Assembly (NCBI GenBank): GCA_022710485.1
Contig: JAKLGU010000003.1
Span: 1-64,000, forward strand
Source of the DNA: Gemmatimonadota bacterium
GTDB taxonomy: Bacteria > Gemmatimonadota > Gemmatimonadetes > Gemmatimonadales > GWC2-71-9
DNA length: 64,000 bases
Direction of reading: 5' to 3'
Shown: positions 3,295 through 49,573 of the stretch, piece after piece
How positions within the stretch are numbered: position 1 is the stretch's first letter
Layout of the letters: each line of letters starts with the position of its first letter
Notes under the pieces: generated by a model
What the model was told of the DNA's origin: nothing
Databases searched by the model: none
What the model saw: the letters and a program-made list of their open reading frames with translations, nothing else
Position numbers and translations under genes: made by a program

Positions 3295-5547
3295 ATGCTC
3301 CTCCCCCTCCTGGCAGCCCTGGTCCAGACACCGACCCAGGCTCCTCCGCCCACGGTCACGATTCCCAGGATCGAAGCCACCGTCACCGTCGACGGTGTCC
3401 TCGACGAACCGGTCTGGGGCCAGGCCGCTCGGCTCGACGGATTCCACCAGTGGCGCCCGGTGGACGGCCGGCCGGCCGAGGAGGAGACGATCGTCCTCGT
3501 CTGGTTCTCGCCGACCGCCATTCACTTCGGGATCATCGGACACGATCGCGACCCCTCCAGCATCCGCGCCACCTTCACCGACCGCGACAAGATCGACGGC
3601 GAGGACCGGGTGCGGCTCTACCTGGACACCTTCAACGATCGACGCCGGGCCGCCTTCTTCGGCGTGAACGGACTCGGCGTGCAGGAGGACGGCCTCCGGA
3701 GCGAGACGGGCACCAGCGCCGGCAATCTCTTCGGCGGCCAGGACGACCTCAACGTGGACTACCTCTGGGACTCCAAGGGGCGGCGCACCGAGCAGGGCTA
3801 CGAAGTCGAGGTCCGGATCCCCTTCAAGAGCCTGCAGTACGCGGGCTCGGGGCCCCAGGACTGGGGGTTCAACGCCGTCCGCTATGTGCAGCGCAGCGGG
3901 TACCAGGACACCTGGACTGACGTGCGGCGAGCCAACTCCAGCTTCCTGGCGCAGGAAGGGGTGCTCACGGGCCTGGAGGGGATGCAGCGCGGACTCGTCT
4001 TCGAGGCACAGCCCTTCGTCACGGCGGGGTGGGCCGGCGCCCAGGACGCAGAGGGCAATTTCCACCGCGACGACCCGGAGCCCAGCGCCGGCATCAACCT
4101 GCAGCTCGCCACCACGACCCTGGCCTTCGACGGCACCGTCAACCCCGACTTCAGCCAGGTCGAGAGCGACCAGGGACTCATCACCGTCAATGAGCGCTTT
4201 GCGCTCTACGTGCCCGAGAAGCGCCCCTTCTTCCTCAAGGGAATCGACCTCTTCTCGACGCCCGGCCAGCTGATCTACACCCGCCGCATCTTCGACCCGA
4301 TCGGCGGCGCCAAGGTGACCGGCAAGCTGGGCCGCAACAGCATCGCCTACCTCGGCTCCGTGGACGACCTGGGCGCCACCGATGCCTGGTTCAGCCTGCT
4401 CCGCGTCCGCCGGGACCTCGGCGAAAATAGCGTGGCCGGCCTGACCTACACCGACCGCATCGAAGGCAGCGCCTACAACCGCCTCGTGGAGGGCGACGCC
4501 CACATCGTCTTCGCCAAGCTCTACTTCGTCGAGGCCCAGTACGGCCAGTCGTGGACCAGCCTCGACGACGGCGACGGGACCGTCACCGATCCGATCTGGA
4601 AGCTGACCTTCGACCGGACCGGCCGGACGTGGGGGTTCAACTACACGATCAACGGCATCGGCACCGATTTCATCGCCGGGTCGGGCTTCGTGCCGCGCAA
4701 CGACATCGTGACGGCGCACATCTTCAATCGCCTCTCGTTCTATGGCGCGAAGGGCGCGCTGCTGGAGAACTTCACCACCTTCTTCGGGCCGACCTTGCTG
4801 TACGAATACGACGGGTTCACCCAGAACGCCCCGATCGAGGGGAACCAGGAAGTAACCTTCCAGTTCACCCTGCGCGGCGGGTGGGAGCTCAGCGCCAAGA
4901 CGGGGAGGGAATTCACCACCTTCGCCCCCGAGTTCTACGATGGGCTGGAGACCGCCCCGGGGGTGCCGTTCGCGCCGCCGCCGAGCCTCGACAATCTCTG
5001 GGCCGGGCAATTGTCCGTCACCACGCCCACCTACCGGCTCTTCGATGCGGCCGCCAGTTATGAGTTCGGGCACACGCCGCTCTACGCCGAGGGGAGCGAG
5101 GGGCAGGGCGTGGCGCTGAGCGCAACCGTCAATTTTCGGCCCAGCAAGACGCTCCGGTTCGAGGGGCGGCTGGCCTACGCGACGCTGAATCGCTCCGCCG
5201 ACGGCTCCGAATTCGCCAACAGCGTGATCCCCCGGTTCAAGGTCGAGTACCAGCCGACGGTGCCGCTCTTTTTCCGGGTCATCACCGAGTACCAGTCCAC
5301 CCGCCGCGCCGAGCTCCGCGATCCGGTCACGGGCGAAATTCTCTATTTCAACGGGCAGCTGTCGAGCCCGCTGGACAATCACGGCCTCCGGTTCGACGTC
5401 CTCGCCTCCTATGAACCGAGCCCCGGTACCGTCGCCTTCCTCGGGTACGGCTCCATCTCCGCCTCGGCCGACGCGTGGGACTTCGGCTCGCTGCAGCGCC
5501 AGACCGACGGGTTCTTCGTGAAACTGGCCTACCTCTTCCGCCGCTAG
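3295..5547 (+). CDS. DUF5916 / carbohydrate-binding family 9 outer-membrane protein
   Basis: A 750-residue secreted protein. After a short signal peptide comes a CBM9-like domain (about 20-210; TVDGVLDEPVWGQA, WFSPTAIHFGIIGHD, YEVEVRIPFKSLQY) and then a long C-terminal region rich in alternating aromatic strands ending in a hydrophobic AYLFRR. This is the DUF5916 architecture, predicted to form an outer-membrane beta-barrel. The marker FYVPEKRPFF is present as LYVPEKRPFF. Function is not established for the family; surface carbohydrate or receptor roles are inferred. It has no Shine-Dalgarno. A TAAGTT hexamer ends 7 bases before the ATG and could give a leaderless transcript in addition to operon read-through from RidA 10 bases upstream. 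Confidence 0.92.
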   Translation: MLLPLLAALVQTPTQAPPPTVTIPRIEATVTVDGVLDEPVWGQAARLDGFHQWRPVDGRPAEEETIVLVWFSPTAIHFGIIGHDRDPSSIRATFTDRDKIDGEDRVRLYLDTFNDRRRAAFFGVNGLGVQEDGLRSETGTSAGNLFGGQDDLNVDYLWDSKGRRTEQGYEVEVRIPFKSLQYAGSGPQDWGFNAVRYVQRSGYQDTWTDVRRANSSFLAQEGVLTGLEGMQRGLVFEAQPFVTAGWAGAQDAEGNFHRDDPEPSAGINLQLATTTLAFDGTVNPDFSQVESDQGLITVNERFALYVPEKRPFFLKGIDLFSTPGQLIYTRRIFDPIGGAKVTGKLGRNSIAYLGSVDDLGATDAWFSLLRVRRDLGENSVAGLTYTDRIEGSAYNRLVEGDAHIVFAKLYFVEAQYGQSWTSLDDGDGTVTDPIWKLTFDRTGRTWGFNYTINGIGTDFIAGSGFVPRNDIVTAHIFNRLSFYGAKGALLENFTTFFGPTLLYEYDGFTQNAPIEGNQEVTFQFTLRGGWELSAKTGREFTTFAPEFYDGLETAPGVPFAPPPSLDNLWAGQLSVTTPTYRLFDAAASYEFGHTPLYAEGSEGQGVALSATVNFRPSKTLRFEGRLAYATLNRSADGSEFANSVIPRFKVEYQPTVPLFFRVITEYQSTRRAELRDPVTGEILYFNGQLSSPLDNHGLRFDVLASYEPSPGTVAFLGYGSISASADAWDFGSLQRQTDGFFVKLAYLFRR

Positions 5548-9416: not shown

Positions 9417-9540
9417 GAGGACTGAGGACTGGGGACTGAGGCCGAACAAGGCTCTTAAGTCAACTCGTTGGCATTTATTGACTTACAGACCATCCACCGA
9501 CTGATCACTCTCAGTCCTCAGTCCTCAGTCCTCAGTCCCT
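9417..9540. repeat. Inverted ACTGAGG repeats flanking an AT-rich core
   Basis: The left arm (9417-9441) has three to four units of ACTGAGG-like sequence and the right arm (9508-9540) four units of its complement. Between them is a 66-base AT-rich core holding an inverted repeat, TAAGTCAA (9456-9463) and TTGACTTA (9478-9485). It occupies the spacer between the divergent sigma and VIT1 genes. Related arrays lie at 27079, 27889 and 42346. Confidence 0.75.
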
Positions 9541-35188: not shown

Positions 35189-35803
35189 GGGGTGGCCGTA
35201 TGGCCACCCCTATCGACAGGAACGCAATTTCGTGTGGGTGCGAGCGGGGTCCAGCCTGACGCAACGAGGGGGTGGCCGTATGGCCACCCCTATCGACAGG
35301 AACGCAATTTCGTGTGGGTGAGAGCGGCGTCCAGCCTGATGCAACGAAGTTGCGTCTGGTTGCGCCAGGGGTGGGCATGCGCCCACCCCAGAGGGAGACG
35401 GTGCCCGGACGGGGTGGCCGTATGGCCACCCCTATCGACAGGAACGCATTTTCGTGGGGGTGGGAGCGGCGTCCAGCCTGATGCAACGAAGTTGCGTCTG
35501 GTTGCGCCAGGGGTGGGCATGCGCCCACCCCGAGGGGGAGACGGTTGCGGCCGGGGTGGCCGTATGGCCACCCCTATCGACAGGAACGCAATTTCGTGTG
35601 GGTGGGAGCGGCGTCCAGCCTGATGCAACGAAGTTGCGTCTGGTTGCGCCAGGGGTGGGCATGCGCCCACCCCGGGGGGGACGGGGTGGCCGTATGGCCA
35701 CCCCTATCGGCACAAACGCAATTTCGTGTGGGTGGGAACGGCGTCCAGCCTGATGCAACGGAGTTGCGTCTGGTTGCGCCAGGGGTGGGCATGCGCCCAC
35801 CCC
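35189..35803 (+). repeat. Array of five dual-hairpin repeat units
   Basis: Units begin at 35189 (truncated, 80 bases), 35269, 35411, 35553 and 35683; full units are about 121 bases with 9-21 base variable spacers (periods 142, 142, 130). Each full unit has hairpin 1 (stem GGGGTGGCC, loop GTAT), a middle with CGCAATTTCGTGTGGGTG and the small stem GCAAC-GAA-GTTGC, and hairpin 2 (stem GGGGTGGGC, loop ATGC). Sequence between units is nearly identical, suggesting recent duplication. Open frames across it in several registers are by-products of the repeat, not genes. Confidence 0.95.
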
Positions 35804-46434: not shown

Positions 46435-47517
46435 ATGAATGGACGAATGATCGACCTGCAGGCCACGCACCCACCCCGGATCCGGCTGACGGCGCTCTCG
46501 CACGGCGCCGGCTGCGCCTGCAAACTCGGCAGCGTCGAGCTCTCGGAGGTCCTGCGCCACCTGCCGGGCGTAACCGACCCCCGGGTGCTGGTGGACGCCG
46601 CCTCGCGCGACGACGCGGCGGTGTTCCTGCTCACTCCCGACCGCGCGCTGGTCGCCACCACCGACTTCTTCACGCCGATCGTGGACGACGCCCGGAGCTG
46701 GGGCGCCATCGCCGCCGCCAACGCCCTGAGCGACGTGTACGCCATGGGCGGCACTCCGCTCTTTGCCCTCAACCTGGTGGCCTGGCCCCGCACCGGACTC
46801 CCCTTAGACCTGCTGGGCGAGGTGATGGCCGGCGCCGCCGAGGTGGCCCGTGAAGCGGGCTGCCTCCTCCTCGGCGGACACTCGATCGACGACGCCGAGC
46901 CGAAGTTCGGGCTCGCCGTGACCGGCGAGGTCCACCCCGATCACCTCATGACCAACGCCGCGGGCAGGGCGGGAGACTTCCTCGTCCTCACCAAGCCGCT
47001 CGGCACCGGGCTCCTGACCACGGCGCTCAAGCGCGACCGGCTGACGGAAGCGGAAATTGCGCCGGCCGTCGCCTCGATGCGAACCCTCAACGCCGGCGCC
47101 GCCCGCGCGGCCCGCACTGCCGGGATTCGCTGCGCCACCGACATCACCGGCTTCGGGCTCCTAGGCCACCTCGGCAACATTCTCCGGGGGAGCTCGCTCT
47201 CGGCCGAACTCTGGATGGAGAATCTGCCCGTACTCGAACAGGCGCGCCAGATGGCGGACGAAGGACTGGTGCCGGGCGGCACCGCGCGGAACCTCGCGGC
47301 GGCCGAGCCGCTCACGACCTACAGCGTGGATGTGACCTCCGCCGAGCGTATCTTGCTGGCGGACGCGCAGACCTCGGGCGGGTTGCTGCTGGCCGTGAAT
47401 CCGGAGCGGCTCGGCGAGTTGCTCGCGGCGCTTGAAGCGGAGCGCACCCTCGCGCGCGCCGTCGTCGGGCGGCTTGTAGAGGGCGAGGCGGGCGCGGTGA
47501 GGGTGTCGGTTTCATGA
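46435..47517 (+). CDS. selD: Selenide, water dikinase (selenophosphate synthetase)
   Basis: A 360-residue enzyme that makes selenophosphate from selenide and ATP, the selenium donor for selenocysteine and selenouridine. The N-terminal catalytic loop SHGAGCACK keeps the E. coli Cys17 and Lys20 equivalents (Cys27, Lys30), and GGHSIDDAEPKFGLAVTG and DAQTSGGLLLAV are conserved. The catalytic residue is Cys, not selenocysteine. An ATG at 46447 is an alternative start. No selA, selB or tRNA-Sec is in the window. Hairpin A begins 12 bases after the stop. Confidence 0.97.
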   Translation: MNGRMIDLQATHPPRIRLTALSHGAGCACKLGSVELSEVLRHLPGVTDPRVLVDAASRDDAAVFLLTPDRALVATTDFFTPIVDDARSWGAIAAANALSDVYAMGGTPLFALNLVAWPRTGLPLDLLGEVMAGAAEVAREAGCLLLGGHSIDDAEPKFGLAVTGEVHPDHLMTNAAGRAGDFLVLTKPLGTGLLTTALKRDRLTEAEIAPAVASMRTLNAGAARAARTAGIRCATDITGFGLLGHLGNILRGSSLSAELWMENLPVLEQARQMADEGLVPGGTARNLAAAEPLTTYSVDVTSAERILLADAQTSGGLLLAVNPERLGELLAALEAERTLARAVVGRLVEGEAGAVRVSVS

Positions 47518-47528
47518 GCGCCCCGCTC

Positions 47529-47619
47529 GGGATGGTCTTCCCGGGGCCGCGGTTCGCACCCCCTCCGAGCCATGGTCTCTGTGGGGGATGCGAACCGATG
47601 CCCCGTCCAGACCATTCCC
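47529..47619 (+). ncRNA. Long imperfect hairpin A, putative structured RNA
   Basis: A 91-base inverted repeat: GGGATGGTCT (47529-47538) pairs with AGACCATTCCC (47609-47619, one bulge); GGGGC with GCCCC; GGTTCGCA (47551-47558) with TGCGAACC (47589-47596); CCCCC with GGGGG; apical loop of 19 bases (47564-47582). Internal loops are 4x4 and 3x3. About 28 base pairs in all. Same architecture as hairpin C at 48635-48765. Whether it is a separate RNA or part of the selD mRNA is unknown. Confidence 0.6.
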
Positions 47620-47647
47620 TTCGCTGGGCGCAACGCAGAGCCTGGCC

Positions 47648-47872
47648 ATGAGGTGGTCCGCCGAACGCTACGACCAGCTGGAACATGCCTGCCGGAACGG
47701 TCTGCGAGTCGTGGTGCAGCGCCGAGGCACGGAGTACATCGTGCTGGCCAACCGGGTGGCCACCGGGCCCCGCGGCGAGGCTCTTCATGCACGGTTGCCG
47801 ATGACGGGAGAGATGATGGAGTTCCTGCTCAAGGAGATCGAGTGGTTCCAGGTCCTGAGGAACGAGGGATGA
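47648..47872 (+). CDS. Hypothetical protein (74 aa)
   Basis: A 74-residue protein from the ATG at 47648: an N-terminal helix (SAERYDQLEHACRNGLRV), a beta hairpin (VVVQRRGTEYIVLANRV) and a C-terminal helix (MTGEMMEFLLKEIEWFQVL). It looks like a small soluble alpha/beta domain; no family recognised. It overlaps the RNase H-like gene by 4 bases (ATGA), so the two are translationally coupled, and lies between hairpins A and B. Confidence 0.75.
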   Translation: MRWSAERYDQLEHACRNGLRVVVQRRGTEYIVLANRVATGPRGEALHARLPMTGEMMEFLLKEIEWFQVLRNEG

Positions 47873-48498
47873 CCCAGCCGCTCGCCATCGCCGTGGTGCA
47901 TCTCGACGAGAGCTGCCTCGGCAACGGGCAGGAAGGCCAGACGCCAGGCGGCGCCGGTGGCCTCATCGAGACCGCCACGCGGGGCGGCGTGCAGCGCCGC
48001 GACTTCTTCCTCCACGCCTCCGACACCACCAACAACCGGATGGCGCTGGCCGGCGGTATCGCCGCGCTCCAGCTCCTGGCCGGCAAGGGCCAGCGGATGC
48101 GGGTCCTGCTGGTGTCCGACTCGGAATACCTGGTGAAGGGGATGCGCGAGTGGGTGCCGGCATGGAAAGCTCGTGGCTGGACCCGAAAGGGCGGCCCCAT
48201 CGAGAACCTCCCGCTCTGGCAACAGCTGGTGTCGTCGGCCGGCAAGCACGAGGTCCAGTGGACGTGGGTCCGCGGGCACCAGGGGCACGCCAAGAACGAG
48301 TACGCCAACGACCTGGCCGTGGCGGCGGCCACCGAACAGCACACCTCGGATGGCGCCATTCCGTCGGGGTTCGAGTCCTGGATCGCGGCCAGGCGGAGCC
48401 GCGGGCAGTATCTCGAGTACGACGCCGATGCAACGTATCAAAGCCTCGCTGATCGGCTCGCCCGCGGGGACGTGATTGAACTCAGAGACGTCGAGTAG
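47869..48498 (+). CDS. RNase HI-fold protein with altered catalytic residues
   Basis: A 209-residue RNase H-like protein. The ATG at 47869 (after AACGAGGG) gives an N-terminus matching RNase HI. Compared with E. coli: Asp10 is kept (Asp13, HLDESCLGN), Glu48 is replaced by Ala59 (TNNRMALAGG), Asp70 is kept (Asp84, VSDSEY), His124 is kept (His137, WVRGHQGH) and Asp134 is replaced by Asn147 (NEYANDLA). RNase HI cuts RNA in RNA-DNA hybrids using four acidic residues. Loss of Glu48 in E. coli abolishes activity, so this copy may bind hybrids or act in another way. A C-terminal extension of about 50 residues is present. Confidence 0.88.
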   Translation: MTQPLAIAVVHLDESCLGNGQEGQTPGGAGGLIETATRGGVQRRDFFLHASDTTNNRMALAGGIAALQLLAGKGQRMRVLLVSDSEYLVKGMREWVPAWKARGWTRKGGPIENLPLWQQLVSSAGKHEVQWTWVRGHQGHAKNEYANDLAVAAATEQHTSDGAIPSGFESWIAARRSRGQYLEYDADATYQSLADRLARGDVIELRDVE

Positions 48499-48516
48499 CG
48501 CGCCCCTCGACTCAGA

Positions 48517-48619
48517 ATGATGTGGTCGTCGGGGTCGTCGGCTCCGGAAGTTCTCTAACCACCCCGCGCCTCTCCCCTGCGAACTTCCTGCGCCGACGAT
48601 CCCCATCCTCCCACATCAT
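48517..48619 (+). ncRNA. Long imperfect hairpin B, putative structured RNA
   Basis: ATGATGTGG (48517-48525) pairs with CCACATCAT (48611-48619); GGGG with CCCC; TCGTCGGC (48535-48542) with GCCGACGA (48592-48599); GGAAGTTC (48546-48553) with GAACTTCC (48581-48588); apical loop 27 bases. About 29 base pairs. Begins 18 bases after the RNase H-like stop. With hairpin C it fills the 316-base gap 48499-48814, which has no convincing gene. Confidence 0.55.
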
Positions 48620-48634
48620 CAACCTTTCGGTTCC

Positions 48635-48765
48635 CTCGGTGGAGGCCGGCGGAGGGATTGGTCCGGAGGGCCGTCAGTTCGCGACCCCCGGAGCGACCGC
48701 GGCGCGGAGGGGGCGCGAACTGCCTTGGCCCGAAGGACCACCCCGAGCCGGCCGAACAGACCGAG
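48635..48765 (+). ncRNA. Long imperfect hairpin C, putative structured RNA
   Basis: CTCGGT (48635-48640) pairs with ACCGAG (48760-48765); GGCCGGC with GCCGGCC; GGTCC (48660-48664) with GGACC (48735-48739); GGGCC with GGCCC; CAGTTCGCG (48675-48683) with CGCGAACTG (48714-48722); CCCCC with GGGGG; apical loop of 19 bases. The top half repeats hairpin A's order of stems and loops with compensating base changes. It ends 49 bases before the zinc-ribbon gene. Confidence 0.6.
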
Positions 48766-48814: not shown

Positions 48815-49573
48815 GTGAGCACCCTTGAACCGCTCTTCCGGCTCCTCGTCCGCACGCTCTCCGAGCGGCAGCCGGAGCGTGTGCACCAGCCGATGTCCAT
48901 CAACGAGCTCATGGATTCGATCCTGCCGTACCGCCTGGTCCGGCGCGAGCTCTCGGTAGACTCGGCGGAGGACTATGAGACGCTCATCTTGCGCCTCTGC
49001 GCCGGTGAAAGTGAATTCGTACAGGCGGAACCCACCACCCAGGCGGCGCTGGCCGCCGAGCTGAGGAAGCCACTCGCGGACCTGGCGCTCCTCCGCGTGT
49101 ACGGCGACACCCACGTCGTCCTCCGCGCCGATCCACTTCTCACCGCCATGGACGACCGCCCTGAGGAACGCTACGCCCCGCCCGGCGCTCGGACCTCGCC
49201 GCCGCCTGAAGCGCCCGAGGCAGCCGAGGTGGAAACGGACAACGCGGCAGCACCGGTGGCGGACAATCAGGGCGAGCAGGACAACGAACCCGACGACGCG
49301 TGGCTACCCGATCCCGTATTCGAGGCCAACGCGAGCGTGGTCACCCCGCGCGCGCCGGATGTCCCTGACGTGCCGCCCGCACAGGCCGACAAGACGCAGG
49401 TCCGCTGTCCCTTCTGCGGCGGGCTGCTGCCGCCGAGGATGGCCATCAACTTCTGTCCGCATTGCGGGATGGGCCAGGACGTCGGCAGTTGTCGCGCCTG
49501 CGGTGCCGACATGGACGTCGGCTGGCGCTACTGCGTCAGTTGCGGCGAGGAAGCCCAGGGAGGTTTGGCGTGA
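48815..49573 (+). CDS. Double zinc-ribbon protein of unknown function
   Basis: A 252-residue protein starting on GTG at 48815. The N-terminal third is helical (LEPLFRLLVRTLSERQPE, SILPYRLVRRELSVDSAEDYETLI). A disordered acidic/proline-rich middle (about 115-190) follows, then two zinc ribbons with four CxxC pairs (CPFCGG, CPHCGM, CRACGA, CVSCGE). Such ribbons mediate protein or nucleic-acid contacts. A GAGATT hexamer ends 6 bases before the GTG and could be a weak leaderless -10. It overlaps the next gene by 4 bases (GTGA). Confidence 0.82.
   Translation: MSTLEPLFRLLVRTLSERQPERVHQPMSINELMDSILPYRLVRRELSVDSAEDYETLILRLCAGESEFVQAEPTTQAALAAELRKPLADLALLRVYGDTHVVLRADPLLTAMDDRPEERYAPPGARTSPPPEAPEAAEVETDNAAAPVADNQGEQDNEPDDAWLPDPVFEANASVVTPRAPDVPDVPPAQADKTQVRCPFCGGLLPPRMAINFCPHCGMGQDVGSCRACGADMDVGWRYCVSCGEEAQGGLA

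Follow-up and report, generated by a model that had tools for sequence, protein, structure and literature searches.

Palindromic hairpin repeats with a conserved internal-loop core in Gemmatimonadota, probably REP/BIME-like mobile elements

Introduction

ERIC sequences are imperfect palindromes of about 100-150 bp that occupy intergenic DNA and carry no gene of their own. The attC sites of integrons keep their structure while their sequence varies, form a hairpin close behind stop codons, and are recognized as single strands. MITE-like intergenic palindromes have also been described in bacteria (PMC2229807). REPs and BIMEs are located downstream of ORFs and occur as inverted dimers, some of them inside longer palindromes, and the CGTC-REPs have no dedicated transposase (PMC3733652).

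The window analyzed here is a stretch of 64,000 nt of DNA from a Gemmatimonadota bacterium (contig JAKLGU010000003.1) that contains three long hairpins, A, B and C. These hairpins belong to dispersed intergenic palindromic repeat families of Gemmatimonadota that are probably REP/BIME-like non-autonomous mobile elements with units of 100-140 nt. A search of the literature on Gemmatimonadota repeats found nothing specific.

Comparison with described palindromic repeats

As in the REP, BIME and REPIN systems (PMC3733652, PMC3116915), the hairpins are multi-copy, dispersed intergenic palindromes that lie downstream of ORFs and between unidirectional and convergent genes, although their copy numbers are low compared with classical REPs. 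Inverted dimers and mosaics are frequent, with neighboring inverted units in different combinations as in BIMEs, and a dedicated transposase is lacking, as it is for the CGTC-REPs. In contrast, the 100-140-nt unit is three to four times longer than the 20-40 nt of a REP and has no terminal GTAG or CGTC foot; its CGTC sits inside the core. The hairpins also have conserved internal loops with a nearly free arm sequence, and their presence does not track RAYT genes. Mobilization by RAYT (Y1) proteins was rejected: Y1/RAYT genes are absent from the carrier genomes G001, G002 and G005 and are present in many genomes without hairpins.

A separate array in the window (35189-35803) consists of nine palindromes that alternate between GTGGCCGTATGGCCAC and GTGGGCATGCGCCCAC. 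On contig C5 of genome G000, a Y1 (RAYT-like) transposase gene with one internal stop (L047, gene 1501-1836) is flanked by GTGGGC...GCCCAC palindromes (1263, 1355, 1914). Because these palindromes are similar to those of the array, the array may be the true RAYT-linked REP of this genome.

Judged by description, the hairpins share with ERIC and MITE-like elements the character of imperfect intergenic palindromes of about 100-150 bp without their own gene. They differ in that no target-site duplication was recognized at the borders of the compared copies and in that a motif scan finds them in Gemmatimonadota only. For the comparison with classical MITEs, a parent IS was looked for among Y1 transposases. 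Integron attC sites are similar in keeping their shape despite variable sequence, in placing a hairpin just 3' of stop codons and in the single-strand recognition that is proposed for the hairpins below, but the hairpins are flanked by chromosomal housekeeping genes and occur in both orientations. An attC identity was rejected on this context and on the absence of RYYYAAC/GTTRRRY boxes at the base, where the copy ends read GGCCGGC...GCCGGCC and others.

Hairpins A, B and C in the window

The hairpins and the genes around them are listed with scores from two covariance models, R1 for the whole A/C repeat and R2 for its core.

46447..47517, plus strand: host gene for an AIR-synthase-related protein, probably selenophosphate synthase SelD (PF00586 and PF02769; orthologues in G001 and G002)
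47518..47629, minus strand: hairpin A, inverted copy of the A/C repeat (R1 110.8 bits on the minus strand, R2 72.3 bits)
47648..47872, plus strand: host gene for a 74-residue protein without a Pfam match (85-89% identical syntenic orthologues)
47869..48498, plus strand: host gene for an RNase H protein (PF00075, E 6e-27; 90-92% identical syntenic orthologues)
48519..48619 (start approximate), plus strand: hairpin B, second palindromic repeat family (four full genome copies; 5-copy alignment A2)
48644..48755, plus strand: hairpin C, copy of the A/C repeat (R1 112.3 bits, R2 86.2 bits)
48815..49573, plus strand: host gene for a zinc-ribbon protein (PF12773; syntenic orthologues)

An earlier sequence-only reading placed three hairpins here, and all of them are present and fold well beyond dinucleotide shuffles. 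The minimum free energies are -62.3 kcal/mol for A (z -7.3), -48.6 kcal/mol for B (z -7.7) and -89.3 kcal/mol for C (z -6.1), and none of 200 shuffles folds as well as A, B or C. The stems that this reading listed for A and C are correct. As a refinement, A is an inverted copy and has to be compared as its reverse complement; the C-oriented R1 model scores hairpin A at 110.8 bits on the minus strand versus 38.5 bits on the plus strand. Hairpin B, which had been described as otherwise different, belongs to a separate repeat family with four full copies in this genome and one relative in a congener. Its loop is pyrimidine-rich and nearly invariant (CTCTAACC...CCCCTGCG).

Repeat borders were set by comparing copies, which gives GGCCGGC...GCCGGCC for the A/C repeat. 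The other copies do not have the additional outer pairs of C (CTCGGT/ACCGAG). Hairpin A begins directly 3' of the selD-like stop codon (47515-47517), and the cores are located at 47533-47614 in A and 48659-48740 in C. A match to a known family had been named as grounds for abandoning the proposal; the Rfam 15 covariance models gave no real match to the hairpins at gathering or permissive thresholds, and on the side of transposons Y1 transposases were compared.

Anatomy of the repeat

On the C strand, every copy consists of a conserved core (a GNA/GNA internal loop and CGUCAGU...GCGAACUGCAG) enclosed by outer arms, which often have wholly different sequences from copy to copy while remaining complementary, and the ends of the 100-140-nt unit differ between copies. 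The outer arm is mostly 15-30 bp long and is followed by the GNA/GNA loop, in which the 5' side has G in 49 and A in 44 of 51 copies and the 3' side has G in 50 and A in 46. Inward of the next 4-6 bp is a CGU/CAG junction with an invariant U, and then CAGU/ACUG. A GA/GA mismatch follows in most genera and is replaced by Watson-Crick pairs in most copies from the window's genus. GCG/CGC and a variable apical part complete the structure toward the tip.

Some copies have outer-arm types in common (in G24, G94 and G108, and as types X and Y in G006). In G087, the outer arms are mostly unrelated between copies yet complementary, forming near-perfect palindromes. Insertion of the core into pre-existing palindromes was rejected: in G006 and G087, the arms of 10 copies that were used as queries occur almost only at the hairpins themselves, with one marginal match (G087:C47).

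Distribution

The genome that contains the window is a 2.53-Mb draft, about 80% complete. It has at least nine full A/C copies, four full B copies and several copies of a related type D, and A, B and C all recur in it away from the genes that accompany them in the window, a check that the sequence-only reading had proposed. Searches with A and with C return largely the same sites on opposite strands (C23:162k, C4:57k, C12:263k, C28:0.5k and C40:82k), which identifies A as an inverted copy of C. Additional A/C copies were found with C as query (C12:107k) and from the covariance model (C29:3.5k). Further B copies are located at C12:263k, C4:57k and C12:110k, with one more that is partial; B adjoins C in the window, on C4 and on C12, where a truncated A precedes them. 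Type D accompanies C on C28 and C40, adjoins a C fragment at C23:72.6k and is represented by a half copy on C4. R1 detects it weakly, but judging from its core it is a member of the A/C superfamily.

Related genomes contain homologous hairpins in which the pairing is kept, as found by the covariance-model search that had been suggested. R1 has strong matches in the genus only, plus two weak ones in other genera, and both of these fold as long hairpins with different outer arms and the same core. Over 394 genomes of the class, R2 finds hairpins in about a dozen genomes and about 10 genera, all of the same family, and several of these genomes have 3-8 copies. Single weak R2 matches outside the family are close to the chance expectation at E 0.01 per genome; one of them, in G254, does not fold as the core and was rejected as a family member. 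The pattern CGTCAGTGAGC-N22-44-GCGAACTGCAG has 19 matches in 84,980 species genomes, all in Gemmatimonadota.

Genomic context

Gene context was taken from a simple codon-based gene finder, whose calls are approximate. By these calls, 50 of 53 copies are intergenic: 32 lie between co-directional genes and are usually closer to the stop codon, 7 lie between convergent and 5 between divergent genes, and the rest are at contig ends. Orientation relative to the co-directional genes is mixed (18 opposite, 14 along).

Copies are often arranged as inverted pairs, and A-B-C, B-C, C-D and D-C mosaics are seen. An X-Y module of G006 has one orientation on C19 and the opposite one on C45, at unlinked sites. 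Of three such modules examined for a constant third hairpin at the center, only one has a good fold there. The flanking genes are assorted host genes, and 20 of them in G006 and G087 gave no transposase match.

The rpmH-dnaA (L030:443-690), mnmE-yidC (L027:4160-4400) and mnmG-upstream (L026:3918-4030) regions, which usually surround the replication origin, contain three A/C copies, one D and one B. Tandem GGGGAAGC / GGGGCAGC units are present beside hairpin copies (L026 about 3820-3870, L030 about 300-390) and at many sites in G001 and G002.

Covariation and strand asymmetry

The compensating paired changes that the sequence-only reading noticed between A and C are real and hold over many copies. 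Double changes that keep pairing occur at 14 of 37 pairs in 11 A/C copies and at 14 of 17 core pairs in 50 distinct sequences. In the latter set, double-changed cells number 121 versus 35.5 in shuffles, and 88% of the cells are paired versus 30-45% with slid partners, although these figures are not independent probabilities, since the sequences were aligned by fitting them to the model and come from related copies.

These changes could instead have arisen mainly through template switching inside palindromes, with one arm copied from the other during replication, rather than through selection on the fold. The left arm CAGTTCGCG and the right arm CGCGAACTG are exact reverse complements in the window's genus, whereas other genera have the mismatched CAGT-GA-GC, and the unrelated but near-perfect palindromic arms of G087 are also what such copying would produce. 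However, template switching would remove the mismatched GNA/GNA loop as well, yet most of the 51 copies retain it, and many of the double changes are single separated pairs. We consider it rather unlikely as the main explanation. Part of the arm complementarity, notably that in the window's genus, may nonetheless stem from template-switch correction, which leaves the kept mismatched loops unexplained.

In arm pairs outside the model, G.U pairs outnumber A.C pairs on the C strand by 27 to 11 (p = 0.014 if independent); a count resting partly on model-covered pairs is 47:12. The excess points to folding of one strand in single-stranded form, as either RNA or ssDNA. A second alternative is a structured RNA family whose C-strand transcript functions as an sRNA or as a 3'-UTR element that stabilizes, processes or terminates mRNAs, and which was dispersed by duplication. 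The strong covariation with kept purine-rich internal loops, the G.U excess (19:3 outside the window's genus) and the copies directly behind stop codons all favor such a family, and the proposal of an undescribed structured RNA class is compatible with the covarying pairing and the lack of an Rfam match. Against it is the occurrence of copies in both orientations relative to genes, since the transcript of a neighboring gene would then often carry the other strand. Furthermore, the wobble counts within the genus are 8:8, the relatedness of the copies keeps all of the wobble counts from being independent, folding of ssDNA would give the same asymmetry, and hairpins appear and disappear rapidly between congeners. 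On this evidence a functional RNA family is unlikely.

Synteny and mobility

The selD-like, 74-residue, RNase H and zinc-ribbon genes have the same order in the congeners G001 and G002, with about 57-92% protein identity. The gap between the selD-like and 74-residue genes is 130 nt in the window, where it is filled by A, about 34 nt in G002, and about 112 nt without a model match in G001. Between the RNase H and zinc-ribbon genes, the window has 316 nt with B and C, G001 has about 113 nt without a model match, and G002 has about 168 nt with one divergent C-type hairpin. The rpmH-dnaA hairpin copies are absent from G002. Intergenic DNA of the congeners is too diverged for exact hairpin borders to be read. 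Another dispersed repeat, CCCCCTCTCC...GGAGAGGGGGACAGGGGGTGA (L029 about 4690-4740, L081 about 2480-2560), also fills the selD-74-residue gap in G001.

By their conserved order, the genes between the hairpins are ordinary syntenic host genes and not part of a hairpin unit, and the implied link of the hairpins to the RNase H gene is not supported. That A and C bound a transposable or cassette-like element with the 74-residue protein and RNase H as cargo is extremely unlikely: the two hairpins are mutually inverted and flank these genes in the window, but this gene order without A in both congeners and without C in G001, and the copies elsewhere without these genes, rule it out.

Dispersal and turnover of the hairpins are shown by the scattered copies in their own genome and by congeners that carry these genes but lack A or lack C. 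The proposal of a palindromic mobile element in mRNA tails fares well in that copies are dispersed and intergenic, lie near stop codons, and occupy some orthologous sites but not others. REP/BIME-like mobile hairpins also account for the GNA/GNA loop that is kept in most copies although the arms turn over, the strong covariation, the intergenic placement and the two orientations of the X-Y module. Against them are the failure to recognize a target-site duplication at the compared borders and the modest copy numbers of about 1-10 per genome, which are lower bounds because the genomes are drafts. No mobilizing enzyme was found among the candidates examined, the Y1/RAYT genes.

As has been suggested for REPs, such mobile hairpins would spread through a trans-acting enzyme that recognizes one folded single strand, most likely ssDNA and possibly RNA. 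Insertion behind genes may do the least harm, which would explain why they persist there, and mRNA 3' ends could plausibly be affected as a secondary consequence. We tentatively propose, as one possibility, that they are mobile structured elements specific to Gemmatimonadota in which the internal-loop core serves as the recognition module, self-complementarity is all that is required of the outer arms, and the enzyme reads the fold of a single strand (ssDNA or RNA). The hairpins add a phylum-restricted repeat family that keeps its shape with almost free arm sequence and offer a natural experiment on how folded single strands are recognized in transposition. They also illustrate that compensatory changes in intergenic hairpins need not imply a riboregulator.

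A stretch that resembles a TPP riboswitch by eye precedes a hairpin cluster at a site that G000 and G002 have in common (L028:5050-5150, L085 about 1850-1900), and the set of repeats there differs between the two species. Inverted GAGGACTGAGGACTGGGGACTGAG-type repeats occupy window positions 9417-9538, and similar GGACTGGGGACTG strings are found near the mnmE copy on C4.
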